Assembly: GCA_006384855.1 (NCBI GenBank)
Contig: VCJN01001772.1
Span: 37,207-101,206, forward strand
Direction: 5' to 3'
DNA from: Tetraselmis striata
Lineage: Eukaryota; Chlorophyta; Chlorodendrophyceae; Chlorodendrales; Chlorodendraceae
DNA length: 64,000 nt
Below are positions 9,801-64,000 of the stretch, in pieces. The translations under genes and the position numbers were made by a program. Position 1 is the stretch's first letter. Each line of letters opens with the position of its first letter. Below the pieces are notes generated by a model, which did no database searches, had not been told where the DNA came from, and saw nothing but the letters and a program-made list of their open reading frames with translations.

Positions 9801-9807
9801 AAGAGCC

Positions 9808-18613: not shown

Positions 18614-18767
18614 ATGTGTTTGTCTCTATTTTTGCGCTGGCCACTAGCCTCCCAAGCTGTCTCGTAATTATTATATTGTAATAGCCCGTAATCGCTATTT
18701 TGCCACGGAATGGGGGTGAAATCGCCGCATCTACCGTGTAATCCCTGCCAAGGGGACTTGGGAAGAG

Positions 18768-23923: not shown

Positions 23924-24000
23924 CTGAATTCCCGTATAGCTTGTAAATATAATCGATCAAACTTCTGCTGCCCAACAAATCCACGCAGCGCCCCGGCTGT

Positions 24001-38439: not shown

Positions 38440-38960
38440 CTAGCGAGCCGAACTCGGAAACGGCGAAAGGAACAAAGCGAAGCATGCCGGCGCCGTTTCA
38501 GACACCCTCGTCATACTTCTGGATTTTTTGGCGCTCTGCAGCCCGCGCAATGCAGTCGTTATATCCGAGCTTGACACGCCGAGGATAGGGACAATGGTGA
38601 TATCGACAGCAACCGTGTTCCCGCGGGTACCACCATACCCAAAAAGCCCAACATCGGCCGGACGGCCGTCGCTGCCCTTCGGAAGAAAAACAAGCACCGA
38701 CTGGTCCGTGAGGATCTAGGCACCCACGTCCATGGCGGACTTCACGTCGTGGCAAACGTCGGAAAGGCCATGTGCCGCCCACTCGTGTGCGGCGTGATTG
38801 GAGTCGCCCCCATAGCAGCGTGCCACGCGATCAACGTACGCGACCGCCCAAGCTGAAGGAGTGAATTCCACGCCAACTTCCACAAAACGGGCCAGCATAT
38901 CTTGTACAAAGAAGGAGCAAAAAGCACAAGGGCAGGGCTCGCCAAGGGAGAGGACTTGGG
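38440..38960 (-). pseudogene. Fragment of a retroelement-like protein, cut by CACTA copy D
   Basis: One minus-strand frame reads FTPSAWAVAYVDRVARCYGG, HEWAAHGLSDVCHDVKSAMD, a TAG stop, and then LVFLPKGSDGRPADVGLFGY and VAVDITIVPILGVSSSDITT. The pattern R-P-A-D-V then D-I-T-I resembles the endonuclease-like C-terminal region of some non-LTR retrotransposon proteins. That is a guess from pattern only. The frame has one internal stop, and its upstream part is lost where copy D begins. Confidence 0.35.
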
Positions 38961-39407
38961 CTCCAGGCTCCCAGCATGTCTCGTAATTCCACTGTAATGG
39001 CCCGTAATCGCGATTTTCCCAGGGAATGGGCTTGTAATCGCTGTATATATCGCGAAATCGCCACTTTTCTGCTAGGCTCGGTAGTCGCAATGAAGTCCCC
39101 GGCTGCCCGCGGTCCGGAATTCAAGGCTACCAGTAGCATGCCCCATCCCCACAGTACATTGTACCAACATCGCGGCTCGCGCGGCAGCCCGTAACGTGTG
39201 GCACTTTCGCCACACTGTACTTTAACGCTGTATGTGTCAGACGCTCCGTGACGACACCGCAACGGCGGCCAACAGCCTCAAACCGCCGGCTGAACATTGC
39301 TGCAAGTCCCGGGACTTTACCATGCATCGCAGCAGCCGGAGCGCCAGTGACTATCTCCTACCACAAACCCGCCCCTGCGAGCCGCCGGCGCCGAGTAGTG
39401 GTGTGCC

Positions 39408-43620: not shown

Positions 43621-43774
43621 CCCTCCCGGCCCCATGCCGCCCTCTATATACCTTCCAACATTGTTGGAATAGTAACGCAGGTCACAGGTCATAATCTAAA
43701 CGCAGCTTGTTCCGGGTATATACTCAATTTCGTACCACCATGTGAACTGTCTATTTAGCACATACCCTGCTGCG

Positions 43775-43890
43775 CGCTGGCGCCCCGTCGCCCCGTCCGC
43801 GGCGCGCTGGCGCCCCGCCGCCCCGGCCGCGGCGCGCTGGCGCCCCGCCGCCCCGGCCGCGGCGCGCTGGCGCCCCGCCGCCCCGACCTC
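43775..43890 (+). repeat. 30-bp minisatellite inside CACTA copy D, about four units
   Basis: Units GCGCGCTGGCGCCCCG(C/T)CGC plus CCCGGCCGCG repeat about four times. The same position in copies A and B has two to three units. Confidence 0.8.
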
Positions 43891-44768
43891 GTTAGCAAAG
43901 GAAATGCGGTTTGTGAAATCGACGGACAGGAGTCGATTTCACTCTTAACTGCGGTCAAGAATGATTTAATCTGATTGTTGATTCTGATTAATGAGGTTGT
44001 TGCCACTACCCCGCAGGTACAACATGTATCACCAGTGCAAGATACACTGTGAGATTCAGATGTGACATACAGGTGACGAAGCACTACTACTAGCGACTAT
44101 TATTTATCCGTGAAGGCTGCTGCTGGTGGCGGCACGTCCATCCAGTTACGTGCGAGTACATCCGGCGTTATTGCCGGCGGGCGATAAATCCTTTTTGTCA
44201 TCATTCTGGTAGTCGTACGAGCCCGGTAAAATGTTACATGGCACTGACGTACAAGGTACAAGGTTGTCCGTGCAGTACCGGGTAGTACGCGATATATTTA
44301 TTGAGCCGGTACCGGGTATCTAGTAGCCGGTACCCGGTACCCGGGCACGATGGACAGTGGTCCTGTGGATAACTACGACTATTAGTACATGGGAGCGTAA
44401 ATCTCAGCCGTACTTTTTGGCCAAAGTGGGGAATTTTGTGTACATTATAGCTAGTACTGCTGAACGGGCCTGCCAGCCGTCCGATCAAAGGTCATCAGAT
44501 GGGCGGTTTGGCTGCCATGTTTTGCCAAAGAGTGCTCACGTTACATAAATATTCGCGAGGGGGAGGGCGGGGGCAGGCAGCGGTTTGCCGAAGAATGTTT
44601 GAATTACAATATTCGCGACAGCTGCCATCGGGGAATGTGGCCCGGCGGGGGGGGGGGGGGGGGGGGTAAGGGGGCGGGGGGACCACGCCCGCCCCGCCCC
44701 CCCCCGCCCCCCCTCGCCGCCAGCCGCTCCCGCCTGGGGGGGGGGGGGGGGGGGTAAGGGGGCGGGGG

Positions 44769-45038
44769 CTACTGCTTGTTCTTGTTCTTGCGTGCCCGCG
44801 GGACCCTCCGCTTCGACGATCTCGCTGCCTCCGCCTCCGCCTCCGCCTGCGCCTCCGACTCCGCCTCCGACTCCGCGACCGTCAGTTTCTTACCTCGGCG
44901 TTTCTTCACTGGCCTCTTCCGCTTCTTGTCATCCGTCAGTGTCTTCACCACCCCGGGAGGCTGTGCCGTCGACGACGCCGCCATGAGCTTCCTTACCTTC
45001 GCGTCGGGACGCCCCCTGTGCCCAGACACCCACAACAA
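44769..45038 (-). CDS. Lys-rich basic protein segment in segment X (89 aa)
   Basis: Reads GRPDAKVRKLMAASSTAQPP, DDKKRKRPVKKRRGKKLTVA, an Ala/Glu repeat (EAQAEAEAEA), then SSKRRVPRARKNKNKQ. The run KKRKRPVKKRRGKK resembles a bipartite nuclear localisation signal. Copy 2 (55499-55756) differs mainly by a shorter Ala/Glu repeat, which varies in steps of whole codons. That fits a real reading frame. It may be the last exon of a gene that includes the upstream piece. Function unknown. Confidence 0.5.
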   Translation of the reverse strand: MLWVSGHRGRPDAKVRKLMAASSTAQPPGVVKTLTDDKKRKRPVKKRRGKKLTVAESEAESEAQAEAEAEAARSSKRRVPRARKNKNKQ

Positions 45039-45060
45039 GCCACAATCGTTTCGCCTTTAA

Positions 45061-45358
45061 GCGGCTGAGGATGCGGCCTCCTCGGCCACCACGAGTTGCG
45101 CCGCTGGCACTGTGGAAGCCTTGGCGTTGAGGTGGGCCTTAACGGCGCTCCCGGACGAACCTGCGCGCGGCACAAGTTAGCCACGAGTGGGTGCGTGCTA
45201 ATGTGGAGGATGGAGTGTTTTGTTGCGCGCCCACCTTGTCACGCGTTTCCTCATGTCTTTCTCGTCCTCCTCGATGCCGGCGGCGCGGACACGCGAGACA
45301 ACAAGGCTCGCCGCCCACTTTTGCCCGGGGGGGCGAGGTCGGCCATGGCGCTGTGAGC
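45061..45358 (-). CDS. Upstream exons of a basic hypothetical protein in segment X
   Basis: One frame reads QKWAASLVVSRVRAAGIEED then EKDMRKRVTR, followed by a GTGGGC donor and a GCGCGCAG acceptor that joins FVRERRKAHLNAKASTVPAA then QLVVAEEAASSAA and a TAA stop. The joined protein would be helical and basic. Copy 2 (55787-56060) has the same exons but a deletion of about 8 bp changes the C-terminus, so that copy is probably dead. No family recognised. Confidence 0.45.
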
Positions 45359-45789
45359 GGTGAAGGGGGGGGGGGGGGGGGCGCGGGGGGGGGGGGGGGG
45401 GGGGGGGGGCGGCCGAGGTGGAGAAACTAACACCCAGTCGACGACCGCCTTCCGCAGCAGTCAACGACACATCGGAGGCGAGGAGCAGCGCGCCACTACT
45501 ATTTATATGCACGTATTGTCAAGAGCTAGTCGGTGCGGCATTGTGTCGGTGTAATTTCGCAATGTTTATTGTTGAGGTAGCACGGCGTAATGGATACGGC
45601 GAGTGAATCCGGGATAATGTGTGCGACGAATGTGCGCGCGCAGCGGTGTGCGGCGGTGTGCGGCGGTGTGCGGCGGTGTGCACCGATGTTAATTTAGTGT
45701 GAATATTATATCGGCCGTAGACGATCAGGTCTGGCAGCACCGCCCGTGCTTGTAAATAAGCGACAATGGATCTAGTCTCCCGCTAGTCT

Positions 45790-46950
45790 GTGCACCGCCA
45801 GTGCACTCCGCAAGCCTCGCCTCCATCCGCGCGCGTCGGAACCGGTAGTAAGTGTTGTGTGCGCACATCGTGACAACATTACACGGTGGCAATTGCAATT
45901 ATTAGCGGTGGATAATGTGAAGGCGTTTTCGAAATCGACAAAGAATGAGGCGGTGCTGGCGGAGTGCATTGGCGGTGCATAGAATAGCGTGTCCCTGGGG
46001 TTTTGGCTGCATCGGACGCCGTATTTCCACCCATCCGGCACGGAATGTCCGGTTTTTACACATTTGTGTGTTAATAAAGTGTGAATATTACGCGTCTTTT
46101 ACGCCGGGTGGATGGGCATCCGGCGTCCGATGCACCCCAATTATTTGCAGCACGCTACTCTACGCACCCCCAACGCACTCCGCAAGCCTCGCCTCCATCC
46201 GCGTCGGAACCGGTAGTAAGTGTTGTTGTGTGCGCACATCGTGACAACATATTACACGGTGGCAATTGCAATTAGCGGTGGATAATGTGAAGGCGTTTTC
46301 GAAATCGACAGAGAATGAGGCGGTGCTGGCGGAGTGCATTGGCGGTGCATAGAATAGCGTGGTGCTGGGGTTTTGGCTGCATCGGACACCGTATTCCCAC
46401 CCATCCGGCACGGAATGTCCGGTTTTCACACATTTGTGTGTTAATAAAGTGTGAATATTACGCGTCTTTTACGCCGGGTGGATGGGCATCCGGCGTCCGA
46501 TGCACCCCAATTATTTGCAGCACGCTACTCTACGCACCCCCAACGCACTCCGCAAGCCTCGCCTCCATCCGCGTCGGAACCGGTAGTAAGTGTTGTTGTG
46601 TGCGCACATCGTGACAACATTACACGGTGGCAATTGCAATTAGCGGTGGATAATGTGAAGGCGTTTTCGAAATCGACAGAGAATGAGGCGGTGCTGGCGG
46701 AGTGCATTGGCGGTGCATGGAATAGCGTGGTGCTGGGGTTTTGGCTGCATCGGACGCCGTATTCCCACCCATCCGGCACGGTATGTCCGGTTTTCACACA
46801 TTTTCGTGTGAATATATATAGTGTGAATATTACGTACGCGTCTTTTACGCTGGGTGGATGGGCATCCGGCGTCCGATGCACCCCGAATCTCACCAACACG
46901 CTACTCTACGCACCCCCAACGCACTCCGCCAGCCCCGCCTCTTTCCGCGC
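45790..46950. repeat. 368-bp fold-back satellite, short array of about three units
   Basis: Three diverged units of the satellite that fills 56756-64000. They share the linker (GGAACCGGTAGTAAGTGTTG, GTGGATAATGTGAAGGCGTT) and both arms. The last unit here ends in a variant (CCGCGCAGGTCCTACG) and carries an extra TATATA-containing centre, so this array is older or a margin of the family. Confidence 0.9.
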
Positions 46951-47754
46951 AGGTCCTACGTTCCATTGTATGTATATACATACGTACATGTACTGCTCCG
47001 AAACCAGCCCAAACTTAATGAGTGCACAAGTGTAAATGGGGGGGGGGGGGGGGGTGTGTGGCGGCGGGGCATCCACTCACACATACCCCGGCGATGCATG
47101 ACAGATATTACATGCCGTGGCGGGTCGGCGGGCCGACCCGGCGGGCCGACCCGGCGGGGGGGGGGGGGGGGGGGGGGGGGGGGGCGTCTATTCAACTACA
47201 CGTGCGACAGTGTCGTTTCGTGGAGCAGTATATGTGCCCGGCCTCATTTATACCGCCCCCTACCTGCGCTGCATGGTCCACCCCTACGAATTACTTAGCA
47301 CAAACCGCCATTACTTAATAGGAACCTAGCACAGCCAGGCTTATATGCCCGCTTTGCCGATCAACTTCTACGCACTTTCCGTCCCTTAACCGCCGGACAT
47401 GGGGGTTAAGCCGCCAGCCTCGGCAGTTGCTTAGCCAGACTTGGCATCCCGTACCGTGTCCATGGCTTCGCAGCTCTGCCGCCGGCACACGCCGAGTCCG
47501 GCGCTTGCTGCCGCGGGGTTGCGCACGCATGCACGCACGGTAATACGCCGCCGACGCCGCCACGCTTATTTCCACCACCTTCGCCAGCCGCAGCTTCGCA
47601 CGCCTTTCCGCCGACATACGAAACGCACGAATCCCCCCCCCCCCCCCCCCCCCCCCCCGTCCCCGCGTCATGTATATTATATTCGAGGCGACTATGCGGG
47701 GCGCAGCACACGCCGCGGCTTGGGTCGGCGGAGCGGCAGGCGGCGGGAGCCCTA
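46951..47754. other. Region with G and C homopolymers, no secure gene
   Basis: G16 at about 47039-47054, G29 at 47156-47184 and C26 at 47633-47658. The direct repeat GGCGGGCCGACCCGGC lies next to the G29 run. A minus-strand frame (47950-47315) and plus-strand frames are open, but none has a recognised motif. The C26 run interrupts any protein as a Pro or Gly stretch. Confidence 0.5.
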
Positions 47755-48561
47755 ATGGCCGGGCAGTATTCACACCCACACAGGCACCGCCGCTCACCTC
47801 CGACGCGGATGAACCGCCTCCCAAAGGAAACATGCCGGTTGGTGGTAATCCCAGCAGGCGTGGGGTGCCGGCGCCGGTACTGGTGCGACGGAGCTGTCGC
47901 GTCAGGAACCGCACCGCATGTGGAGCAACACATGGCGGTGCCGGCCCCACCTATGTCTAGGGCCACCTCCTCACAACACCCCGCCACGACGGCGTCGGCC
48001 ACCGCCGACGGCGCCGTTGCGGGGGGGGACGCCCTGCCAGGCGACGATGATGCGCCTGGTGCGCCGCGTCAAGAGGCGGAGGAGGCCGTGGTCGAGGCGA
48101 CTGATCGGGCTGAGGGGGTTGTCGAGGCGAGCGAGGCTGCGCTCGCGCCACCCGCCCCGCAGCCACCTGCGGGACATGCCGACTTGCTCGTCGCCATGTT
48201 GACCGGAGCACTACGAGCAGTGGCGGGAGGCGGCCACATGCACTATCATGTGCGTGTCCTGGCCGGACGCCCGTCATGCGTGGACTGCGGCCAACGGACG
48301 GACTGGGAGTGTTGCTGCGACGGCACCCCGGCTTTGTGCGGCCCCAAGTACCCATGCATGGCGACCCATCAGCGGGCAGTCCTCTGCCCGACCACGGCCA
48401 CGGTGAGGGCGGAGTTCCGTCATGTCAGGGACGCGTTCCACGACGCGACTCGCGCCGCCGTGTGTGAGGCTTCCGAGAAGGCACGCGCGGCTGGTAGGGT
48501 GCGCAGGGTGAGGCGGCGGACGGCCCAGGAGCTGAAGGAGAGCGAGACATGCCGTCAGTGA
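47755..48561 (+). CDS. Cys-rich hypothetical protein (268 aa)
   Basis: The last third contains HYHVRVLAGRPSCVDCGQRT then DWECCCDGTPALCGPKYPCM and ATHQRAVL. The CxxC...CxC...LC...C...H pattern could bind zinc and resembles the Cys-rich C-terminal finger of piggyBac-type transposases. No DDE domain is visible upstream, so that link is weak. The middle is Ala/Glu-rich (EAEEAVVEATDRAEGVVEAS) and the end is helical and Arg-rich (RAAGRVRRVRRRTAQELKES). The start is uncertain; the first 100 residues may be intron or leader. Long and free of stops, but unsupported by a second copy. Confidence 0.5.
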   Translation: MAGQYSHPHRHRRSPPTRMNRLPKETCRLVVIPAGVGCRRRYWCDGAVASGTAPHVEQHMAVPAPPMSRATSSQHPATTASATADGAVAGGDALPGDDDAPGAPRQEAEEAVVEATDRAEGVVEASEAALAPPAPQPPAGHADLLVAMLTGALRAVAGGGHMHYHVRVLAGRPSCVDCGQRTDWECCCDGTPALCGPKYPCMATHQRAVLCPTTATVRAEFRHVRDAFHDATRAAVCEASEKARAAGRVRRVRRRTAQELKESETCRQ

Positions 48562-48606
48562 GGTCGGGCGCAATGTCATTGGGTGGGGCACACGGACGTG
48601 TAACAC

Positions 48607-48916
48607 TTGCACTTTGCGCGTACTGCTGGGTTACATCCAAGCGGTGTCACACTATGCAACCGGAAAGGCTGCGTTGCTACTGCAAACGATGCTACGCCTC
48701 ACTCGGTAGCAACCGCTGCCCCGCCTATCCCACAGCCGCTGCCCCCCCCCCCCCCCCCCGCGCGCGGGATCCCCGCCATCAGCAGCTTGCACTTGCACTT
48801 TGCGCGTACTGCTGGGTTACATCCAGGCGGCGTCACACCGGAAAGGCTGCGTTGCTACTGCAAACGATGCTACGCCTCACTCGGTAGCAACCGCTGCCCC
48901 GCCCATCCCACTCGGG
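48607..48916 (+). repeat. Tandem direct repeat, two units of about 125 bp
   Basis: GCACTTTGCGCGTACTGCTG through GCAACCGCTGCCCCGCC(T/C)AT occurs at 48607-48732 and again at 48794-48912. The second lacks about 10 bp. A C run (about 48744-48759) lies between. The end of the unit, CCCGCCCATCCCACTCG, also interrupts the 30-bp minisatellite at 49603-49620. Confidence 0.85.
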
Positions 48917-49497
48917 ATGCTGAGAGCAGCTAAAGGGCACCGGGGGCGGGGCAAGAGGGAGCAGGGCCAATGATTGTGGAAGAGCGGGGACCCGCTTGCA
49001 TGCCATCGTATTATATCTTGCACAATATCTGTTGCTGCACTCATATCTCACATCACTAGCTTAGCTATAGTGATTCCCCCCCCCCCCCCCCCCCCGCACC
49101 GCGGACGCACAAGCCTGGGTATACGCATCAACTGCCCGCCGGGATGAGAAACTGGTATTGGTAGTGTGTCTGTGGGGTGGAGGGGGGGCAAAAGAGCTGC
49201 CAATTGCTGCCAAGCTGGTGCGTTACATTGGGGCAGGCGCTGGGCAGACAATTGGGGCTCGCTTCAGAGCATTGTCTAGTGCCTATGCGGCTGCGCCGCC
49301 TCCGCCGCATGCAGACTCTCCGAGCTCACCAGCACCGCCACCTCAGTCATGCGGCCCTGCATCCCGCAGCCCGCCGCCGCCAGCCAGATCAGAGGTATCC
49401 AGAAGCCAGTGCTGGGGTTGTTGCGGCATGACCGCATAGTTTTCAGCGCCTGCCGTCCACAACTTGTAATGCATCCCTTTCCGCCGATTCCGCTGTC
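48917..49497. other. Spacer, no recognised gene
   Basis: Contains C19 at about 49077-49095. The minus-strand frame of the following gene may extend into 49343-49497. Nothing else is recognisable. Confidence 0.4.
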
Positions 49498-50027
49498 TTG
49501 GCGCCGCGCTGCCCCGGCCGCCGCGCGTTGGCGCCGCGCTGCCCCGGCCGCCGCGCCTTGGCGCCGCGCTGCCCCGGCCGCCGCGCCTTGGCGCCGCGCT
49601 GCCCCGCCCATCCCACTCGCCTTGGCGCCGCGCTGCCCCGGCCGCCGCGCCTTGGCGCCGCGCTGCCCCGGCCGCCGCGCCTTGGCGCCGCGCTGCCCCG
49701 GCCGCCGCGCCTTGGCGCCGCGCTGCCCCGGCCGCCGCGCCTTGGCGCCGCGCTGCCCCGGCCGCCGCGCCTTGGCGCCGCGCTGCCCCGGCCGCCGCGC
49801 CTTGGCGCCGCGCTGCCCCGGCCGCCGCGCCTTGGCGCCGCGCTGCCCCGGCCGCCGCGCCTTGGCGCCGCGCTGCCCCGGCCGCCGCGCCTTGGCGCCG
49901 CGCTGCCCCGGCCGCCGCGCCTTGGCGCCGCGCTGCCCCGGCCGCCGCGCCTTGGCGCCGCGCTGCCCCGGCCGCCGCGCCTTGGCGCCGCGCTGCCCCG
50001 GCCGCCGCGCCTTGGCGCCGCGCTGGG
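49498..50027. repeat. 30-bp minisatellite, about 17 units
   Basis: The unit CTTGGCGCCGCGCTGCCCCG plus GCCGCCGCGC repeats almost perfectly, interrupted once at 49603-49620. Because 30 is a multiple of three, all six frames stay open, giving false ORFs such as ARRQGAAAGA and GRRALAPRCP. The unit is closely related to the minisatellite inside CACTA copies A, B and D. Confidence 0.95.
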
Positions 50028-51670
50028 TATCGAGTCCTCCCGTCCCTAGTGAGCGCGTCCACCTGCGCCTTGCGCTCGGGGCCGTCCTCCTCCGTCACCA
50101 CATTCTGCAACCCCCACCGCGTGACGAACCACGCAGCTCCTTGCAGGCGCTTGTACATGTGCCCAAGCACCGCCAGTCGTGACACCGAACGCACCACCGC
50201 TGGGGACGCGAGCTCCTTCTCGGGCATGATCGCCTTCACCCGGGCCTCCTCGAGGAGCGGACCGGCGTTAAGAATTGAAAACGTTTCCATGTGGTGCAAG
50301 CAGTCCTCCATGACCCAGCCGGGCTGCACCGTCACCTTGCCTGACCCTGCAGTCATGGAGGGGAATGCCGTCACGCCCACGCCCACGCCCACGCCCGGGG
50401 GGGGGGGGGGGGAGGGGTTTACCTTTCGATTCTTGGACACTGCAAACGAAGGGCGCAACCCGCGTTCAAAGTTGCTGGGTATCGGGACTAAAGCCTGGCG
50501 CCGGTCTTCCTGCTTCATAGCTCGGAATCCAATGTGGCCCTGCACGGTGACAAATTTCCTCCAGAAGTCCCTTCCCAAGCCAAAAAAAAAACAGGTGGAA
50601 CGGCGCGAGGGGGAAGAGGTTGACCATGCTGACATAGCCCCGGACCACATGCACATGGCACACGCCATGGCAGCCAGTGTTCTGCTTGGCCTCCGCCAGC
50701 CGGGTTGTGTTGACCGCACGCCGGGCAAGGTGCGTGATTCACTGGACAAGTCATCGCCTTCATGGACGGTTACCAAGCGAGCCTCCCCGTCCGCATCCAC
50801 AGGGGGGTGCTCCTGGGCAGCCGTCATAGCCTCCACAACCTGCCACGCCGACCGGGCGGGTGCGTGTGATTCCATACAACCGCAGTTGAGTGGTGCCACC
50901 AGCACGCAGGCCGGGCCCACTCACCTCTGAACGCAGAAGGCCCACAATGCCCCCGTCCTCGAAAACAGCGCGCCACTGGGTCGCCCCGCCGTAGTCCTCC
51001 AACACCCACTCGGTAACGACGCCGGTTATCACGCCGTAGTGCCATACTCCCCGGAACTTCTTGGCGATGACCTTCATGTAGAAGTCGCCGGAATCGCCTT
51101 TCCATATCACGCCCTCATCGCGGGTTCCACGCCCGCCGGCGGCCACGCAAGCGCGTCGATGTCCATACCGTCTTCGCCAACGGGGTCCTCCCCCACGCCC
51201 ATCACATCGTCCACCTTCGAGCCGCCGTCGTCCGAGACCGGCGCCGGCGGGCCGTTTCCGACGGCTGCAGCTACTCCTGCTGCCGCCCCTGTTGTTGTTG
51301 CTGCTGCTGCTGCCGCCCCTGCTGCTGCTGCTTGTGATAAGGCGGCCTTGCGGCGCAACTTAGCCGCACGCTTCAACGAGTGGCTACACTTCGGGAATTT
51401 TAGGAAGTGCCGCTCTCGCGCCATCTTCTCACAAGTGCCCGTCACGTTGCCCCGGCAGTGCTTGCATGAGTACACGCCATCCTTCGACACACTCGCTATC
51501 CATCCCTTTGCCGGCATGCCTGCTGCCGCGCGCGAGGGGCGGGGGGGGGGGGGGGGGGGTTGAGAGTTGGGGTGGATGTAACCCACCACCGGCAGGCAAC
51601 ACAGATGCGAGTGCGCGGCTGTCCGCGCTTGATTCAACGGTGAGCGGCGGTGACCGTGAGGCGACCCCAT
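50028..51670 (-). pseudogene. Broken multi-exon gene with BED-like finger and Tudor-like module
   Basis: Read on the minus strand, the first ORF (51670-51107) has a BED-like finger: GVYSCKHCRGNVTGTCEKMA then RERHFLKFPKCSHSLKRAAK. An Ala-rich and an acidic stretch follow. After a one-base shift near 51145 comes a Tudor-like segment (GDFYMKVIAKKFRGVWHYGV, then QWRAVFEDGGIVGLLRSE) that ends at a good GTGAGT donor at about 50928. A next exon, VVEAMTAAQEHPPVDADGEA, follows a GGCAG acceptor. Further down, GWVMEDCLHHMETFSILNAG and EEARVKAIMPEKELASPAVV are open down to the minisatellite. BED fingers and chromatin-like modules are common in transposases, so this may be a transposon gene, but I saw no catalytic domain. 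Confidence 0.5.
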
Positions 51671-52103
51671 ACTTCATGCGCGTGCTGGGGCGTTACACAA
51701 TCATCAGCAGTTAGGGCGGCTGCATTAAAACGCGCACCTACGAACACCACCTACCGCCTACCACCTACCGTACCACCTACATCCGCCCACACCTCCGCCC
51801 GTCGTGCCGCACATCGCGGCACACCGCGGGGTCAACGGTCAGCGATGTGCGGTCAGCGATGTGCGGCGATGTGCAATGAGTGCGTACATCCGCCTGTACT
51901 TAGCCCGGGTGCTCCGCGTCGGCGGGCGACACGCGAGCCCGCGTGCGCATATCAATTTGATGAAATTATGGAAACGAGAAATTCATATAGTACTTTACAG
52001 GTCGCGCGCGATAGTCGTCGCTACTGGGTATGAAATCCACGTCCCTCGTCCGTCCCGTATCGTCCCCGTATGTCGTCGTTCGTCACCAGTAGGGCACATT
52101 TAC
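51671..52103. other. Spacer with short tandem repeats
   Basis: CACCTACC-type repeats lie at about 51735-51785 and GCGATGTGCGG-type repeats at 51840-51875. The last 30 bp (52070-52103) look like a degenerate inverted copy of the start of segment X. No gene recognised. Confidence 0.45.
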
Positions 52104-52125
52104 GTCACATCTGAATCTCACAGTG
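52104..52125 (-). repeat. 22-bp inverted copy of the end of the CACTA third ORF
   Basis: Exact reverse complement of 54793-54814 and of 44045-44066. It abuts the left end of CACTA copy C. Confidence 0.9.
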
Positions 52126-52267
52126 ATAGGGGAGGGGACATCAATCCTGGCTACCTCTGTATCGTACACCAGGACACAAGGGCGGAAGCGCAACTACTGG
52201 ATAAAGGCAACCCTCTCCCCCCCACGCCTGACTCCAAACTGCCTACATAGTGTTGCCCTGCTGAGTT

Positions 52268-52780
52268 ATGGTATACACACACATGCAGGTCGTGCATGAG
52301 AAGCCCGAGACACGCAGGCCTTTGGTATTCAAGCAGAAGACATGGGACGAGCAGTGGATGCCCACTGATGAGTACGGCAATAAGCAAGCCATACTGCGAG
52401 ACAAGCGTGCCGAGGTGGAGCAGCATGACAACGACGTGTATGTTGGGGAAGTGCTGTACTTCCTCGAGGTGACCCACACCAGCCCTTCGGTGCCGGACCT
52501 CACCCTCGCCGTGTGCCGACTGAACGCAACTGAGCGCATGGTGATAAGGTCCCCCCTTGGCACTGGTGTGTGGCAGAGCAAGGCGCCCCTTCGGCCAAAC
52601 CTTCGCAAGGGGCATGACGCCTTACCTGTCGCGCTGAAGCACATCGAGGATAAACTGTGATGCTTCTATGCTTATCCGGACATAGTGACAGACCAGCACT
52701 TGTCCAAGTTTGGCATGTCCTCACAGGATTTGGGGCAGTATGTGTGGTGCACATATAACACAATGACCTTGCACTACTAG
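52268..52780 (+). pseudogene. C-terminal CACTA transposase module, copy C
   Basis: Reads VVHEKPETRRPLVFKQKTWD, EYGNKQAILRDKRAEVEQHD, VLYFLEVTHTSPSVPDLTLA and SPLGTGVWQSKAPLRPNLRK. An in-frame TGA at 52658-52660 stands where copy B has a Cys codon. The same frame continues to KFGMSSQDLGQYVWCTYNTM and TAG at 52778-52780. This is the cleanest example of the module, with a single visible stop. Confidence 0.65.
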
Positions 52781-53177
52781 CTGAATTACCGTATAGCTTG
52801 TAAATGAAATCGCTTAAACTTCAGCTGCCCAGCAATTCCGCGCAACGCCCCGGCGCCGCTGATGCCCTGCGCACCCACCGCTCAAAAAAACCTAGCCCCC
52901 TTTGCAATCTGAATCCAGGCGGTTTTTAAACAACCCATGCTGGGAATCTGCTGGGTACGAGGGGTTGCAAAGAGAGGTGACACAGTTGGGACAGTCACAT
53001 GGGTAAGGCTTGCCAGACTATTACACAATCCTAAAATCACAACACTTCTGCGTGCTGCTACTCGCTACTTACTGTGTACTTTCCCCGCTATGGATAACTA
53101 GTAGCTCCCACCTTGGCAAGGGGGGGGAGGGGGTCGGGCAAGGCAGCAGGAGGCGTCACAAGATCGCCTCGTTTGAA

Positions 53178-53531
53178 CTAAGGCACGTATGGTCGCCTAC
53201 TCCATATGTCCTCTTGAACCCGCCAAAGTTTTTTGAAGCTTGTGTGCTCTTGGAGGGGCAGCCAAGCCTTGGACCACGCGCGGCTCACAGTCCTTCGAGG
53301 GAGCCATTCCTTTAGGGCGCCAAACACTACGGGGCAGCTGTTAGCGGCCTTTTCCCGAATGTTCGCCCACACGTCCTCAGGTAGATCGTCCCACGGGCAG
53401 TGCAGCACCTCGCCGGGTACGGGCGCGGGGGCTGACGTTTCCTCCACCGACTCGTCGGGTTCGGGTCCGGGGGTTGCCCGTTTCGCCACGGGCTGTGGCT
53501 TCACTTCCGGGGCTGCATCCATCGCGCGCAA
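53178..53531 (-). CDS. F-box-like ORF, antisense inside CACTA copy C (117 aa)
   Basis: Near-identical to the ORF at 5497-5916: WDDLPEDVWANIREKAANSC and RRTVSRAWSKAWLPLQEHTS. It ends at TAG right after RRPYVP, where copy A continues with KFKRGDLV. Its N-terminus has a few extra residues (MRAMDAAPEVK) compared with copy A. Retention in two copies that differ elsewhere argues that the ORF is part of the element rather than noise. Confidence 0.45.
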   Translation of the reverse strand: MRAMDAAPEVKPQPVAKRATPGPEPDESVEETSAPAPVPGEVLHCPWDDLPEDVWANIREKAANSCPVVFGALKEWLPRRTVSRAWSKAWLPLQEHTSFKKLWRVQEDIWSRRPYVP

Positions 53532-53961
53532 TTGGGCAGTACGCCACGTGTTGTTATGACCTACTACCCCACCGTCGGCAGCCCTGGCGTATAATCAGCC
53601 GCTTGTCTGACTGTTTGGGCTTGTGCAGTAGACACGTGCAGTCGATTTAGAAGCGGAGTACGCCAGATTACGATATCATTCCCCGTTAAGGGTTAGCTAC
53701 GGCCGAATTGCGGTTCTGTCGCAAGTGTGTGTCAAATGTGTCCTCATGCAAACACTAAATACGGGATATATATGGGACATTACTCGATGATTACACAGCA
53801 AGCCGGAGTGCGCTAACAGCGGAGCGCGATGATAAGTCGTCTAGGCGCGCGGCGCCGGACTTGGTGTTTTTTGACTAAAGCAGCAGCTGCGCCGCCTGAC
53901 GCACACTCGCACCCGCTAGACAGTACCGTAGCTGTTCATCCCCCAGCACGCACCCTCCATC

Positions 53962-54813
53962 ATGTCCACCCACGCCAAGCTAATTCCATGCACACCCTAC
54001 GGCAAAGCTGCGAGGCCTGAGGGCATGACCATACCACTCGGTGCTCTGTGCAGCACGGGCTGCATCGTTGAGGACGTGCGGCAGGCATTGTTCCGCGGCC
54101 AGGCGACCAACAACCATATCCGCGTTCACCCAGAGCAACCCCAGGGCGAGGACGCGTTCGGCTATGCTTTCGCAGACATAGTGAACAACTGCGCTGAGCC
54201 AAAGCAATACGACGTAGCCGGCAAGAAGCACATGCTTGAGGCAGGTTTTCAAGTGTCCGATTCGGGTGTCGTCACGCTGTATTTTACCTCGTGCGTACCC
54301 GACGCGACGCGTGCCCAGATCTTGAACCCAGCCCCCGAGGCGGCGCCACCCCCCCCCCCCTCCCCGCCGCAGGATCTAACTTGGGCACTGGCGTTAAGAA
54401 CGCCTCCGCCGACGGTCCATCCCATACTCTCACTACGAGCCAGGCACGGGCTCCAGTCCACCCTGAAAGGTACACTGAGTCGGCGAGTGGCTGACATGAC
54501 TGCGTGGAGGATTTGAATTTCACGGGCGTTGATCGCCCCGTGCCGCGTTTTGCTGTTTGCTCCTTCAGCCAAGGACAAGGCGGTGCTGTTGGTTGTCTTT
54601 GACGAATGCTGGCCGCGCGACACTCGGACGGGGGTCCCTTACCCTCTGAAGAAGACGCACATGTTTCCCATCGCCGCGCCCCCGTACAACGAGCGGATCT
54701 GCTACATTACCTGCAACTACCGTGCTGGCTACACAGCCGACAACGTCATCTACGCCAAGGAGGCCGTCATTGCCGCGTTCCGAGAGTACACCCACTGTGA
54801 GATTCAGATGTGA
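53962..54813 (+). CDS. Third CACTA ORF, two exons, 250 aa, unknown function
   Basis: Exon 1 (53962-54469) starts MSTHAKLIPCTPYGKAARPE and exon 2 (54569-54813) starts AKDKAVLLVVFDECWPRDTR. The donor AAAG|GTACAC and acceptor CTTCAG agree in phase, and copy A keeps the same intron. Exon 2 ends AAFREYTHCEIQM. Exon 1 contains IRVHPEQPQGEDAFGYAFAD and a Pro run from a C tract (54350-54360). No stop interrupts the joined frame, so this is the least damaged gene of the family in the window. I recognise no domain. It may be the accessory protein that CACTA elements often encode beside the transposase. Confidence 0.6.
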
Positions 54814-55498
54814 CATACGGGTGACGAAGCACTACTACTAGCGACTATTATTTATCCGTGAAGGTTGCTGCTGGTGGCGGCACGTCCATCCAGTTACGTG
54901 CGAGTACATCCGGCGTTATTGCCGGCGGGCGATAAATCCTTTTTGTCATCATTCTGGTAGTCGTACTAGGGCGGTGAAGTGTTACATGGCACTGACGTAT
55001 GAGGTACAAGGTTGTCCGTGTAGTACCGGGTAGAACGCGATATATTTATTAAGCCGGTACCGGGTATCTAGTACGAACCCGGGCGCGATGACGAGTCGTC
55101 CTGTGGATAACTACGACTATTAGTACATGGGAGCGCAAATCGCAGCCGTACGTATTTGGTAACAGTGGGGAGTTTTGTGTACATTATAGCTAGTACTGCT
55201 GAACGGGCATGCCAGCCGTCCGATCAAAGGTCATCAGATGGGCGGTTTGGCTGCCATGTTTTGCCAAAGAGTGCTCACGTTACATAAATATTCGCGAGGG
55301 GGAGGGCGGGGGCAGGCAGCGGTTTGCCGAAGAATGTTTGAATTACAATATTCGCGACAGCTGCCGTCGGGGCATGTGGCCGGGGGCGGGCGGGGGCGGC
55401 GGGGGGACCACGCCCGCCCGCCTCCCCCCCCCCCCCTCCCCCCCCCCCACTGCCGCCCGCCGTGCGGGAGTGAGGGGAGGGGGGTAAGGGGGCGGGGG

Positions 55499-55756
55499 CT
55501 ACTGCTTGTTCTTGTTCTTGCGTGCCCGGGGGACCCTCCGCTTCGACGATCTCGCTGCCTCCGCCTCCGCCTGCGCCTCCGACTCCGACTCCGCGACCGT
55601 CAGTTTCTTACCTCGGCGCTTCTTCACTGGCCTCTTCCGCTTCTTGTCATCCGTCAGTGTCTTCACCACCCCGGGAGGCTGTGCCGTCGACGACGCCGCC
55701 ATGAGCTTCCTTACCTTGGCGTCGGGACGCCCCCTGTGCCCAGACGCCCACAACAA
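55499..55756 (-). CDS. Lys-rich basic protein segment, segment X copy 2 (85 aa)
   Basis: Same as 44769-45038 except for a shorter Ala/Glu repeat (EAQAEAEA) and one Val/Ala change near the start. The NLS-like KKRKRPVKKRRGKK and the C-terminal RARKNKNKQ are identical. Confidence 0.5.
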   Translation of the reverse strand: MLWASGHRGRPDAKVRKLMAASSTAQPPGVVKTLTDDKKRKRPVKKRRGKKLTVAESESEAQAEAEAARSSKRRVPRARKNKNKQ

Positions 55757-55786
55757 GCCACAATCGTTTCGCCTTTAAGCGGCTGA

Positions 55787-56060
55787 GGATGCGGCTTCCT
55801 CGGCGGAGTTGCGCCGCTAGCACTGTGGAAGCCTTGGCGTTGAGGTGGGCCTTACGGCGCTCCCGGACGAACCTGCGCGCGGCACAAGTTAGCCACGAGT
55901 GGGTGCGTGCTAATGTGGAGGGTGGAGTGTTTTGTTGCGCGCCCACCTTGTCACGCGTTTCCTCATGTCTTTCTCGTCCTCCTCGATGCCGGCGGCGCGG
56001 ACACGCGAGACAACAAGGCTCGCCGCCCACATTTGCCCGGGGGGCGAGGTCTGCCATGGC
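55787..56060 (-). pseudogene. Upstream exons of the basic hypothetical protein, segment X copy 2
   Basis: QMWAASLVVSRVRAAGIEED, EKDMRKRVTR and FVRERRKAHLNAKASTVLAA are kept. A deletion after AAQL changes the frame, so the stop used in copy 1 is lost. Confidence 0.4.
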
Positions 56061-56475
56061 GCTGTGAGCGGTGAAGGGGGGGGGGGGGGGGGGCGGCCGA
56101 GGTGGAGAAACTAACACCCAGTCGACGACCGCCTTCCGCAGCAGTCAACGACACATCGGAGGCGAGGAGCAGCGCGCCACTACTATTTATATGCACGTAT
56201 TGTCAAGAGCTAGTCGGTGCGGCATTGTGTCGGTGTAATTTCGCAATGTTTATTGTTGAAGCAGCACGGCGTAATGAATACGCGGTTTCACCGAGTGAAT
56301 CCGGGATAATATGTGCGGTAGGGCGCGTATATGTGCGCGACGAATGTGCGCGGATGTGCGCAGCGTTGTGCGGCGGAGTGCGGCGGTGTGCACCGATGTG
56401 AAGAAAGTGTGAATATTATATCGGCCGTAGACGATCGGGTCTGGCAGCACCGCCCGTGCTTGTAAAGAAGCGACA

Positions 56476-56755
56476 ATGGATCACGTCATGCTCCGGTTGT
56501 ACTCCTGCACTTCCTCCACTTTGGCGGGTTGGGGGGGGCGGGGGGGGTCCTGTCCTTATTACTTGCATCGGTAGACGTGCTGGATATGGAGGTCACCAGG
56601 CACATCGCGTGGTTTCGGAGTAGTTCATTCGCGCCTCCTCGTCTTGTTTGCAATCGTCGCCCTAATCCAATGCAGGGTGAGTAGCGGGACACTGTGCCCC
56701 CCCCCCCCCGGTTTATGTAAACAAATATCTAGCCGTGCATGCGCCGCAATCGGTA
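56476..56755. other. Unique spacer between segment X and the satellite array
   Basis: Contains G-rich (56530-56546) and C-rich (56698-56709) tracts and no recognised gene. The equivalent spacer after segment X copy 1 is only about 15 bp. Confidence 0.5.
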
Positions 56756-59700
56756 CCATCCGCGTCGGAACCGGTAGTAAGTGTTGTTGTGTGCGCACAT
56801 CGTGACAACATTACACGGTGGCAATTGCAATTAGCGGTGGATAATGTGAAGGCGTTTTCAAAATCGACAGAGAATGAGGCGGTGCTGGCGGAGTGCATTG
56901 GCGGTGCATAGAATAGCGTGTTGCTGGGGTTTTGGCTGCATCGGACGCCGTATTCCCACCCATCCGGCACGGAATGTCCGGTTTTCACACATTTGTGTGT
57001 TAATATAGTGTGAATATTACGCGTCTTTTACGCCGGGTGGATGGGCATCCGGCGTCCGATGCACCCCAATTATTTGCAGCACGCTACTCTACGCACCGCC
57101 AATGCACTCCGCAAGCCCCGCCTCCATCCGCGTCGGAACCGGTAGTAAGTGTTGTTGTGTGCCCACATCGTGACAACATTACACGGTGGCAATTGCAATT
57201 AGCGGTGGATAATGTGAAGGCGTTTTCGAAATCGACAGAGAATGAGGCGGTGCTGGCGGAGTGCATTGGCGGTGCATAGAATAGCGTGTTGCTGGGGTTT
57301 TGGCTGCATCGGACGCCGTATTCCCATCCATCCGGCACGGAATGTCCGGTTTTCACACATTTGTGTGTTAATATAGTGTGAATATTACGCGTCTTTTACG
57401 CCGGGTGGATGGGCATCCGGCGTCCGATGCACCCCAATTATTTGCAGCACGCTACTCTACGCACCGCCAATGCACTCCGCAAGCCCCGCCTCCATCCGCG
57501 TCGGAACCGGTAGTAAGTGTTGTTGTATGCCCACATCGTGACAACATTACACGGTGGCAATTGCAATTAGCGGTGGATAATGTGAAGGCGTTTTCAAAAT
57601 CGACAGAGAATGAGGCGGTGCTGGCGGAGTGCATTGGCGGTGCATAGAATAGCGTGTTGCTGGGGTTTTGGCTGCATCGGACGCCGTATTCCCACCCATC
57701 CGGCACGGAATGTCCGGTTTTCACACATTTGTGTGTTAATATAGTGTGAATATTACGCGTCTTTTACGCCGGGTGGATGGGCATCCGGCGTCCGATGCAC
57801 CCCAATTATTTGCAGCACGCTACTCTACGCACCCCCAACGCACTCCGCAAGCCCCGCCTCCATCCGCGTCGGAACCGGTAGTAAGTGTTGTTGTGTGCGC
57901 ACATCGTGACAACATTACACGGTGGCAATTGCAATTAGCGGTGGATAATGTGAAGGCGTTTTCGAAATCGACAGAGAATGAGGCGGTGCTGGCGGAGTGC
58001 ATTGGCGGTGCATAGAATAGCGTGTTGCTGGGGTTTTGGCTGCATCGGACGCCGTATTCCCACCCATCCGGCACGGAATGTCCGGTTTTCACACATTTGT
58101 GTGTTAATATAGTGTGAATATTACGCGTCTTTTACGCCGGGTGGATGGGCATCCGGCGTCCGATGCACCCCAATTATTTGCAGCACGCTACTCTACGCAC
58201 CCCCAACGCACTCCGCAAGCCCCGCCTCCATCCGCGTCGGAACCGGTAGTAAGTGTTGTTGTGTGCGCACATCGTGACAACATTACACGGTGGCAATTGC
58301 AATTAGCGGTGGATAATGTGAAGGCGTTTTCGAAATCGACAGAGAATGAGGCGGTGCTGGCGGAGTGCATTGGCGGTGCATAGAATAGCGTGTTGCTGGG
58401 GTTTTGGCTGCATCGGACGCCGTATTCCCACCCATCCGGCACGGAATGTCCGGTTTTCACACATTTGTGTGTTAATATAGTGTGAATATTACGCGTCTTT
58501 TACGCCGGGTGGATGGGCATCCGGCGTCCGATGCACCCCAATTATTTGCAGCACGCTACTCTACGCACCGCCAATGCACTCCGCAAGCCCCGCCTCCATC
58601 CGCGTCGGAACCGGTAGTAAGTGTTGTTGTGTGCGCACATCGTGACAACATTACACGGTGGCAATTGCAATTAGCGGTGGATAATGTGAAGGCGTTTTCG
58701 AAATCGACAGAGAATGAGGCGGTGCTGGCGGAGTGCATTGGCGGTGCATAGAATAGCGTGTTGCTGGGGTTTTGGCTGCATCGGACGCCGTATTCCCACC
58801 CATCCGGCACGGAATGTCCGGTTTTCACACATTTGTGTGTTAATATAGTGTGAATATTACGCGTCTTTTACGCCGGGTGGATGGGCATCCGGCGTCCGAT
58901 GCACCCCAATTATTTGCAGCACGCTACTCTACGCACCGCCAATGCACTCCGCAAGCCCCGCCTCCATCCGCGTCGGAACCGGTAGTAAGTGTTGTTGTGT
59001 GCGCACATCGTGACAACATTACACGGTGGCAATTGCAATTAGCGGTGGATAATGTGAAGGCGTTTTCAAAATCGACAGAGAATGAGGCGGTGCTGGCGGA
59101 GTGCATTGGCGGTGCATAGAATAGCGTGTTGCTGGGGTTTTGGCTGCATCGGACGCCGTATTCCCACCCATCCGGCACGGAATGTCCGGTTTTCACACAT
59201 TTGTGTGTTAATATAGTGTGAATATTACGCGTCTTTTACGCCGGGTGGATGGGCATCCGGCGTCCGATGCACCCCAATTATTTGCAGCACGCTACTCTAC
59301 GCACCGCCAATGCACTCCGCAAGCCCCGCCTCCATCCGCGTCGGAACCGGTAGTAAGTGTTGTTGTGTGCGCACATCGTGACAACATTACACGGTGGCAA
59401 TTGCAATTAGCGGTGGATAATGTGAAGGCGTTTTCGAAATCGACAGAGAATGAGGCGGTGCTGGCGGAGTGCATTGGCGGTGCATAGAATAGCGTGTTGC
59501 TGGGGTTTTGGCTGCATCGGACGCCGTATTCCCACCCATCCGGCACGGAATGTCCGGTTTTCACACATTTGTGTGTTAATATAGTGTGAATATTACGCGT
59601 CTTTTACGCCGGGTGGATGGGCATCCGGCGTCCGATGCACCCCAATTATTTGCAGCACGCTACTCTACGCACCGCCAATGCACTCCGCAAGCCCCGCCTC

Positions 59701-62700
59701 CATCCGCGTCGGAACCGGTAGTAAGTGTTGTTGTGTGCGCACATCGTGACAACATTACACGGTGGCAATTGCAATTAGCGGTGGATAATGTGAAGGCGTT
59801 TTCAAAATCGACAGAGAATGAGGCGGTGCTGGCGGAGTGCATTGGCGGTGCATAGAATAGCGTGTTGCTGGGGTTTTGGCTGCATCGGACGCCGTATTCC
59901 CACCCATCCGGCACGGAATGTCCGGTTTTCACACATTTGTGTGTTAATATAGTGTGAATATTACGCGTCTTTTACGCCGGGTGGATGGGCATCCGGCGTC
60001 CGATGCACCCCAATTATTTGCAGCACGCTACTCTACGCACCGCCAATGCACTCCGCAAGCCCCGCCTCCATCCGCGTCGGAACCGGTAGTAAGTGTTGTT
60101 GTGTGCCCACATCGTGACAACATTACACGGTGGCAATTGCAATTAGCGGTGGATAATGTGAAGGCGTTTTCGAAATCGACAGAGAATGAGGCGGTGCTGG
60201 CGGAGTGCATTGGCGGTGCATAGAATAGCGTGTTGCTGGGGTTTTGGCTGCATCGGACGCCGTATTCCCATCCATCCGGCACGGAATGTCCGGTTTTCAC
60301 ACATTTGTGTGTTAATATAGTGTGAATATTACGCGTCTTTTACGCCGGGTGGATGGGCATCCGGCGTCCGATGCACCCCAATTATTTGCAGCACGCTACT
60401 CTACGCACCGCCAATGCACTCCGCAAGCCCCGCCTCCATCCGCGTCGGAACCGGTAGTAAGTGTTGTTGTGTGCCCACATCGTGACAACATTACACGGTG
60501 GCAATTGCAATTAGCGGTGGATAATGTGAAGGCGTTTTCAAAATCGACAGAGAATGAGGCGGTGCTGGCGGAGTGCATTGGCGGTGCATAGAATAGCGTG
60601 TTGCTGGGGTTTTGGCTGCATCGGACGCCGTATTCCCACCCATCCGGCACGGAATGTCCGGTTTTCACACATTTGTGTGTTAATATAGTGTGAATATTAC
60701 GCGTCTTTTACGCCGGGTGGATGGGCATCCGGCGTCCGATGCACCCCAATTATTTGCAGCACGCTACTCTACGCACCGCCAATGCACTCCGCAAGCCCCG
60801 CCTCCATCCGCGTCGGAACCGGTAGTAAGTGTTGTTGTGTGCGCACATCGTGACAACATTACACGGTGGCAATTGCAATTAGCGGTGGATAATGTGAAGG
60901 CGTTTTCGAAATCGACAGAGAATGAGGCGGTGCTGGCGGAGTGCATTGGCGGTGCATAGAATAGCGTGTTGCTGGGGTTTTGGCTGCATCGGACGCCGTA
61001 TTCCCACCCATCCGGCACGGAATGTCCGGTTTTCACACATTTGTGTGTTAATATAGTGTGAATATTACGCGTCTTTTACGCCGGGTGGATGGGCATCCGG
61101 CGTCCGATGCACCCCAATTATTTGCAGCACGCTACTCTACGCACCGCCAATGCACTCCGCAAGCCCCGCCTCCATCCGCGTCGGAACCGGTAGTAAGTGT
61201 TGTTGTGTGCGCACATCGTGACAACATTACACGGTGGCAATTGCAATTAGCGGTGGATAATGTGAAGGCGTTTTCGAAATCGACAGAGAATGAGGCGGTG
61301 CTGGCGGAGTGCATTGGCGGTGCATAGAATAGCGTGTTGCTGGGGTTTTGGCTGCATCGGACGCCGTATTCCCACCCATCCGGCACGGAATGTCCGGTTT
61401 TCACACATTTGTGTGTTAATATAGTGTGAATATTACGCGTCTTTTACGCCGGGTGGATGGGCATCCGGCGTCCGATGCACCCCAATTATTTGCAGCACGC
61501 TACTCTACGCACCGCCAATGCACTCCGCAAGCCCCGCCTCCATCCGCGTCGGAACCGGTAGTAAGTGTTGTTGTGTGCGCACATCGTGACAACATTACAC
61601 GGTGGCAATTGCAATTAGCGGTGGATAATGTGAAGGCGTTTTCGAAATCGACAGAGAATGAGGCGGTGCTGGCGGAGTGCATTGGCGGTGCATAGAATAG
61701 CGTGTTGCTGGGGTTTTGGCTGCATCGGACGCCGTATTCCCACCCATCCGGCACGGAATGTCCGGTTTTCACACATTTGTGTGTTAATATAGTGTGAATA
61801 TTACGCGTCTTTTACGCCGGGTGGATGGGCATCCGGCGTCCGATGCACCCCAATTATTTGCAGCACGCTACTCTACGCACCGCCAATGCACTCCGCAAGC
61901 CCCGCCTCCATCCGCGTCGGAACCGGTAGTAAGTGTTGTTGTGTGCCCACATCGTGACAACATTACACGGTGGCAATTGCAATTAGCGGTGGATAATGTG
62001 AAGGCGTTTTCGAAATCGACAGAGAATGAGGCGGTGCTGGCGGAGTGCATTGGCGGTGCATAGAATAGCGTGTTGCTGGGGTTTTGGCTGCATCGGACGC
62101 CGTATTCCCACCCATCCGGCACGGAATGTCCGGTTTTCACACATTTGTGTGTTAATATAGTGTGAATATTACGCGTCTTTTACGCCGGGTGGATGGGCAT
62201 CCGGCGTCCGATGCACCCCAATTATTTGCAGCACGCTACTCTACGCACCGCCAATGCACTCCGCAAGCCCCGCCTCCATCCGCGTCGGAACCGGTAGTAA
62301 GTGTTGTTGTGTGCCCACATCGTGACAACATTACACGGTGGCAATTGCAATTAGCGGTGGATAATGTGAAGGCGTTTTCGAAATCGACAGAGAATGAGGC
62401 GGTGCTGGCGGAGTGCATTGGCGGTGCATAGAATAGCGTGTTGCTGGGGTTTTGGCTGCATCGGACGCCGTATTCCCACCCATCCGGCACGGAATGTCCG
62501 GTTTTCACACATTTGTGTGTTAATATAGTGTGAATATTACGCGTCTTTTACGCCGGGTGGATGGGCATCCGGCGTCCGATGCACCCCAATTATTTGCAGC
62601 ACGCTACTCTACGCACCGCCAATGCACTCCGCAAGCCCCGCCTCCATCCGCGTCGGAACCGGTAGTAAGTGTTGTTGTGTGCCCACATCGTGACAACATT

Positions 62701-64000
62701 ACACGGTGGCAATTGCAATTAGCGGTGGATAATGTGAAGGCGTTTTCGAAATCGACAGAGAATGAGGCGGTGCTGCGGAGTGCATTGGCGGTGCATAGAA
62801 TAGCGTGTTGCTGGGGTTTTGGCTGCATCGGACGCCGTATTCCCACCCATCCGGCACGGAATGTCCGGTTTTCACACATTTGTGTGTTAATATAGTGTGA
62901 ATATTACGCGTCTTTTACGCCGGGTGGATGGGCATCCGGCGTCCGATGCACCCCAATTATTTGCAGCACGCTACTCTACGCACCGCCAATGCACTCCGCA
63001 AGCCCCGCCTCCATCCGCGTCGGAACCGGTAGTAAGTGTTGTTGTGTGCCCACATCGTGACAACATTACACGGTGGCAATTGCAATTAGCGGTGGATAAT
63101 GTGAAGGCGTTTTCGAAATCGACAGAGAATGAGGCGGTGCTGCCGGAGTGCATTGGCGGTGCATAGAATAGCGTGTTGCTGGGGTTTTGGCTGCATCGGA
63201 CGCCGTATTCCCACCCATCCGGCACGGAATGTCCGGTTTTCACACATTTGTGTGTTAATATAGTGTGAATATTACGCGTCTTTTACGCCGGGTGGATGGG
63301 CATCCGGCGTCCGATGCACCCCAATTATTTGCAGCACGCTACTCTACGCACCGCCAATGCACTCCGCAAGCCCCGCCTCCATCCGCGTCGGAACCGGTAG
63401 TAAGTGTTGTTGTGTGCGCACATCGTGACAACATTACACGGTGGCAATTGCAATTAGCGGTGGATAATGTGAAGGCGTTTTCGAAATCGACAGAGAATGA
63501 GGCGGTGCTGGCGGAGTGCATTGGCGGTGCATAGAATAGCGTGTTGCTGGGGTTTTGGCTGCATCGGACGCCGTATTCCCACCCATCCGGCACGGAATGT
63601 CCGGTTTTCACACATTTGTGTGTTAATATAGTGTGAATATTACGCGTCTTTTACGCCGGGTGGATGGGCATCCGGCGTCCGATGCACCCCAATTATTTGC
63701 AGCACGCTACTCTACGCACCGCCAATGCACTCCGCAAGCCCCGCCTCCATCCGCGTCGGAACCGGTAGTAAGTGTTGTTGTGTGCGCACATCGTGACAAC
63801 ATTACACGGTGGCAATTGCAATTAGCGGTGGATAATGTGAAGGCGTTTTCGAAATCGACAGAGAATGAGGCGGTTGCTGGCGGAGTTGCATTGGCGGTGC
63901 ATAGAATAGCGTGTTGCTGGGGTTTTTGGCTGCATCGGGACGCCGTATTCCCACCCATCCGGCACGGAATGTCCGGTTTTCACACATATGTGTGTTAATA
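56756..64000. repeat. 368-bp fold-back satellite, about 20 tandem units, continuing beyond the window
   Basis: Units recur at exactly 368 bp, for example from 57010 to 57378 to 57746 and so on. One unit is 367 bp (deletion near 62776). In the first unit the arms are 56876-56968 and 57032-57124, inverted to each other with 76 of 93 positions matching and no gap. Between them is a 63-bp centre with CACACATTTGTGTG, and the remaining 119 bp form a linker. Each unit therefore contains ORFs in opposite directions (89 and 90 codons), which I treat as by-products of the structure. Confidence 0.97.

Follow-up and report, generated by a model that had tools for sequence, protein, structure and literature searches.

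The DNA analyzed here, a window of 64,000 nucleotides from Tetraselmis striata (GCA_006384855.1, contig VCJN01001772.1, forward strand, positions 37,207 to 101,206), ends in a tandem array in which each unit can fold back on itself. Such an array raises the question of whether it is a chromosomal satellite or belongs to something else; satellites are often suspected of originating within transposons. The array occupies 56756–64000 on the forward strand and has a period of 368 bp, with 19.7 copies and 99% matches by Tandem Repeats Finder, in agreement with the roughly 20 tandem units of a preliminary description. It stops at position 101,206, the last base of the contig (C1432), and the final partial unit contains four single-base insertions, such as low-quality sequence near a contig end might give. 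What the window shows is a long form of the array, truncated where the contig stops, and the 19.7 copies are only the part that is seen.

In the first unit, the 5′ arm (56876–56968, forward strand) and the 3′ arm (57032–57124, reverse strand) form an ungapped inverted match at 76 of the 93 positions and enclose a center of 63 bp (56969–57031) that contains CACACATTTGTGTG. These particulars had been given in the preliminary description and are correct. The center also holds, by alignment, the motif TTAATATAGTGTGAATATTA, which recurs in the left flank of the element described below. The best gapless inverted match in the unit scores 49.5, far above the values from 500 dinucleotide shuffles (maximum 13.5, mean 8.6), so the identity of the arms exceeds that of random sequence. 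The dyad aligns with its own reverse complement over ∼250 bp with a score of 103 (shuffles, maximum 28), and all 19 complete units in the long array show the inverted self-match, at 71%–73% over 255 aligned positions. That a unit could form a long hairpin, as had also been proposed, is supported by RNA folding of one unit: −191.9 kcal/mol compared with −128.4 kcal/mol for 100 shuffles (SD 5.6).

The window contains a second, shorter array of the 368-bp fold-back unit at 45781–46945, and the ∼1.7 kb upstream of the two arrays are 90% alike. Twenty further stretches were fetched from the listed matches closest to the window unit; because they were chosen for this likeness, the set is biased toward long arrays. 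At the 5′ side, 17 array edges were compared, and a common left flank precedes all but two of them (15 of 17), namely those of L011 and of the shorter L027 array. All 17 compared 3′ edges run into a common right flank, including those of the shorter L027 array and of the L011 array, whose other end is L010; the comparison does not extend to the C30 and C570 arrays. On the left, homology around the arrays stops after 1.7–2.1 kb (after 3.7 kb in L020); on the right, in those stretches that are long enough, it stops after 3.9–5.2 kb. Since the edges lie inside a larger element, the arrays compared are not free-standing satellites. The earlier interpretation is thereby divided, with the fold-back and its hairpin capacity standing and the stand-alone satellite failing. 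Two other features of the fetched stretches were recorded. Near position 1510 of L011 (C2384), the array adjoins telomere-like TAACCCTAACC in place of the left flank of the element, and L029 (C870:181294–181447) contains the single 5.8S rRNA match above cut-off, amid apparent protein-coding exons.

At the limits of homology are 22-bp inverted ends, CACTGTGAGATTCAGATGTGAC and its reverse complement. The left terminal repeat is common to all 15 copies with the shared left flank; it begins with CAGTG in four of them, CACCG in one and CACGG in one, and the ends otherwise begin with CACTG, which we take to be a CACTA-type end. Inverted ends beginning with CACTA or CACTG, by which CACTA/EnSpm elements are recognized, are thus found on both sides, as is the 3-bp target duplication of that group, exact in 8 of the 11 copies with both ends read (∼1/64 per copy would match by chance). 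Among the array-bearing copies, a matching duplication flanks five of eight (copy A of the window, ATA; L017, ATC; L018/L019, TTG; L023/L031, CGT; L021/L033, TTG), and three have unlike triplets (L022, AAG/AAA; L028, CAT/CGC; L025/L035, CAA/TTA). In the other fetched copies, including L020, L024, C324, C591, and C652, one end falls beyond the stretch or was not found, and no element end was found in L032 and L034, the extra stretches for L020 and L024. GTGACGAA, a candidate subterminal repeat, is present near both ends. The Tetris-like arrangement of Foldback elements, with tandem repeats inside long terminal inverted repeats, does not apply, as the ends are only 22 bp long and the array is internal.

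Both window arrays belong to copies of this element. Copy A (44045–52125, forward strand) is complete at ∼8.1 kb and is inserted in another repeat; it is delimited by both inverted ends and by the duplication ATA, read at its edges at 44042–44044 and 52126–52128. Sequence comparison places its 22-bp right terminal inverted repeat at 52104–52125 on the reverse strand. Repeat finding and edge comparison assign about three fold-back units to its short array (45781–46945, forward strand), which begins with part of a 3′ arm. A related empty site was located by alignment at 23250–23252, where an uninterrupted paralogue of the repeat entered by copy A has ATA once, compared with twice around copy A. 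Copy B (54793–64000, forward strand), defined by its left end and the homology limit, is cut by the contig end within its array, which was delimited by repeat finding and unit comparison. Its left terminal inverted repeat, identified by sequence comparison at 54793–54814 on the forward strand, is CACTGTGAGATTCAGATGTGAC, and homology with 14 other copies ends exactly at 54793 in 11 and at most 7 bases away in 3.

Other repeats accompany these copies. Copy A has a second internal array at 49497–50025, a 30-bp GC-rich minisatellite detected by repeat finding, which varies among copies of the same transposon, from 17.5 units in copy A to few in L028. Related repeats occur in a neighboring, different repeat at 4369–4438, 23011–23095, and 43772–43885. 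The window also holds another large repeat with copies at 2518–6631, 18641–23998, and 38957–44044 + 52126–54675, mutually ∼75%–94% alike in pieces; the last of these is the target of copy A.

To the genome as a whole, patterns were applied with up to three mismatches, under which reversed-pattern controls all gave zero and more diverged copies are missed. The counts, which are totals not paired copy by copy, were 1173 left ends, 1178 right ends, and 1186 array 3′ borders, and the element is present in about 1,180 copies. Copy size is 6.0–11.8 kb (median ∼7.4 kb) in 18 copies among the matches listed whose exact ends were paired by eye; ∼1,180 copies of ∼7.4 kb give an estimate of ∼8.7 Mb, or close to 4% of an assembly of 224 Mb. 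The first 100 exact left ends among the matches listed, counted by eye, lie on 89 different contigs. The arrays sit inside dispersed transposon copies, and nothing was seen to mark either a centromere or a subtelomere, as had been suggested. Neither a linker stretch nor the terminal repeat matched exactly in viral contigs.

The same counts, with 2688 linkers and 3886 dyad centers, give on average 2.3 linkers and 3.3 dyads per 3′ border. Because the fetched complete arrays hold at least two linkers, an average of 2.3 per border makes many large free arrays in the assembly improbable, a point on which the sum of dyads and linkers alone is not decisive. Linkers and borders together number 3874, close to the number of dyad centers, which leaves no room for solo dyads in any quantity. 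Among the fetched copies, the 5′ border of the array that is seen most often occurs at only 371 places genome-wide; subfamilies therefore differ in their 5′ border and have the 3′ border in common. From the equal counts of left ends and array borders, most copies seem to retain the array, which could be useful to the element though not essential.

That the array is not essential is apparent from a derivative that lacks it. In the 6-kb C73 copy, the left flank joins the right flank directly and the whole array is absent, and the identical junction occurs at 29 places on 28 contigs. Target duplications flank all three array-less copies with both ends read (C73, ATG; C164, CCA; C280, CTA). The left flank was read in seven array-less copies, of which C324 and C557 have the same flank and so represent one insertion, leaving six distinct insertions. 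A single junction at 29 places, together with distinct insertions with duplications, indicates that the array-less derivative has itself multiplied, and the array is therefore unnecessary for the spread of the element.

Little was found in the element that might encode its own mobilization. Thirteen element open reading frames (ORFs) were compared with Pfam, three in a first set, then five from copy A (the last overrunning its end) and five from L028, and none reached the cut-off of a family. Third-position changes were examined in 30 frames of at least 100 amino acids, in 11–13 copies, a test that covers ORFs of this length and not short exons. No frame stands out; the strongest excess is 23 of 49 changes, uncorrected for the 30 frames. 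A search for PF02992, aimed at a transposase of the Transposase_21 kind that CACTA/EnSpm elements encode, gave no match in the genome, and none in the control genomes either. An autonomous partner was sought through exact 22-bp ends with C or T as the next base; these occur at seven places, and all four of those fetched belong to the same family. On these sequence comparisons, the family is provisionally taken to be non-autonomous. Elsewhere in the window, an ORF at 34862–35446 (forward strand) encodes a DDE_Tnp_4 transposase domain (E 3.4e-17), presumably of Harbinger type, and a 475-amino-acid open frame at 12327–13754 (reverse strand) has a GATA zinc finger (E 5.7e-10) and is perhaps a host gene.

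To see how the arrays change, a set of 136 unit pieces was assembled; it contains 90 full internal units from 23 arrays, 58 of them distinct, with first and last units left out. Units differ pairwise by 0.7% on average within arrays and by 2.1% between arrays, and by 0.5% in the window array. Two unit types alternate in L021, runs of five and seven units in L012 equal the consensus, and blocks of linked variants reappear in different units. The divergent parts of an array are the outer half-dyads at its two ends. Such patterns, with homogenized centers and distinct edges, fit what unequal exchange or replication slippage would be predicted to leave. Beside the homogeneous array of L012 (C570), a few interrupted units at ∼7672–9913, three of which differ mutually by up to 6%, belong to an older or rearranged array.

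Were pairing of the arms under selection, it might be visible in these units. At Watson-Crick paired positions, 39 distinct changes were found, of which 25 give a mismatch and 14 a G-T pair, and none of the 39 is part of a compensatory double change among the 90 full internal units. The frequency of variable sites is similar in paired arm positions (34/150) and in the linker (31/121), and is 17/63 in the center. Unpaired arm positions are variable at 15 of 34 sites, and 12 of the 17 distinct changes there restore a Watson-Crick pair, which could reflect conversion between the arms, the persistence of ancestral states, or weak maintenance. There is no clear sign of selection maintaining the pairing of the dyad.

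The dyad has one link with the rest of the element. A motif of 20–23 bp is present once in each dyad center and again in the left flank; it covers ∼22 bases, all 22 of which agree in the C73 and C68 copies. In the left flank of L028, it was located by alignment with a score of 20.5, compared with a maximum of 14.5 in 30 shuffled flanks. The corresponding copy in copy A, GTTAATTTAGTGTGAATATTA, was placed by eye at 45688–45708 on the forward strand. The array-less C73 copy retains its left-flank motif. Beyond this motif, no part of the element was found to resemble the dyad clearly. The terminal repeats give no local match to the unit above a score of 7, and the motif does not resemble them.

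With the array placed inside a transposon, a role for it in the chromosome becomes very improbable. In that explanation the array would be a centromeric or subtelomeric satellite or a replication barrier, with units selected to form cruciforms or hairpins. The ∼20 homogeneous units with their strong dyad are what such a satellite would look like, exact matches to the linker span 17 kb of contig C30 (whose flanks are outside the edge comparison), and the L011 array begins beside telomere-like sequence. However, the 3′ edge of that same array, like all 17 compared, lies in the element, the first 100 listed left ends are scattered over 89 contigs, only ∼2.3 linkers accompany each border, and the arms show no compensatory changes. 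The free satellite, centromere, and subtelomere were rejected as explanations on the common element flanks and the genome counts.

The origin and use of the unit invite other explanations. The dyad could have begun as a separate miniature inverted-repeat element, which entered the transposon and was later copied in tandem. As a near-palindrome of ∼250 bp with no clear likeness to the transposon beyond the 20–23-bp motif, it would suit this part, but dispersed solo dyads with target duplications, by which a miniature element would be recognized, are not seen in any sizeable number (3886 compared with 3874 at up to three mismatches). This counts against a living family rather than an ancient single insertion, and we consider such an origin unlikely, if conceivable. 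It is also quite unlikely, in our estimate, that the array benefits the transposon by supplying extra putative protein-binding sites through the motif in each dyad. The match of the motif to the left flank and the agreement between counts of left ends, right ends, and array borders speak for such an advantage, and a comparable proposal exists for Tetris and Galileo in the accessible text of PMC4079207. Against it, the motif is unlike the terminal repeats and array-less copies occupy 29 places, yet C73, the one read through, still has the motif in its left flank. A bolder variant, which we regard as speculative and doubtful, makes the dyad a built-in satellite seed: the palindrome would stall replication and so drive its own tandem growth, the transposon would scatter self-expanding nuclei, and the shared motif would serve as a bound site.

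We are confident in the explanation that the array forms an internal repeat block within a cut-and-paste DNA transposon, non-autonomous and CACTA/EnSpm-like, and is a passenger that would grow by exchange or slippage. The position of the array inside the element, the 22-bp inverted ends, the 3-bp duplications, the empty site, the matching counts, and the dispensability of the array are direct observations. A transposase acting in trans, array growth by exchange, and passenger status are inferred from them. The transposase that mobilizes the element would be supplied by a different element. A short array, consisting of a dyad and then a few linker-dyad units, was probably present in the family from its founder onward. 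In some inserted copies, the array would gain or lose units through unequal exchange or through slippage during replication, events that the tandem repeats, and perhaps the hairpins, would favor, and a few arrays would attain the size of a satellite. The array would be a passenger throughout, being dispensable for spread and bearing no clear sign of pairing under selection. Several observations sit less easily with this explanation: no transposase was found with PF02992 (a search that was also empty in the control genomes), three of the eight array-bearing copies have no matching duplication, and the 5′ border is not uniform, its commonest form being found at only 371 places. In addition, most changes at unpaired arm positions, which vary more than other sites, restore pairs, and the agreeing counts of ends and borders suggest that the array is perhaps useful.

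No report of this element was found in a full-text literature search, and the closest known systems, as far as the accessible text of the relevant papers goes, are Tetris and the satellites carried by CACTA elements. Tetris/TIR-220 of Drosophila virilis is described there as a non-autonomous DNA transposon whose internal tandem repeats, each a few hundred bp long, vary in number and in some copies have grown to satellite-like arrays, with unequal exchange favored as the cause; the repeats lie within long terminal inverted repeats and the target duplications are 8–10 bp (PMC4079207). The element described here is similar in having internal tandem repeats of variable number that are satellite-like in some copies. 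By the same account, it differs in its 22-bp ends, 3-bp duplication, and single internal array in which each unit is a dyad. In the available text on Chenopodium quinoa, CACTA elements contain an internal array of a 171-bp satellite, with 32.5 monomers in one element; the array is named in four scaffolds, near the 3′ end, the element has a transposase domain, and FISH shows the satellite dispersed along chromosomes (PMC8978399). The T. striata element is likewise a CACTA-type transposon with an internal satellite array. In contrast to what that text reports, no transposase was found in it, the ∼1,180 array borders equal the ends in number, and an array-less derivative has spread as well. The place of the array, the dyad in the unit, and the breadth of array carriage set it apart from both systems as so described. 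A third satellite, CficCl-61-40, is described in the accessible text as having monomers that originated in part of the transposase gene of the CACTA-like element Jozin (PMC7320549). There too, satellite monomers are tied to a CACTA-like transposon, but the unit here is a dyad plus a linker in which no coding signal was found.

The caution that follows is that long fold-backs repeated in tandem, however striking, do not have to mean a chromosomal structure. One genome here holds array-less, short-array, and satellite-sized copies of a single element. To our knowledge, such stages in the origin of satellites within transposons are rarely seen together. The copy number is high enough for the start, growth, and loss of arrays to be measured, and the array-less copies provide a natural comparison for the dispensability of the array.
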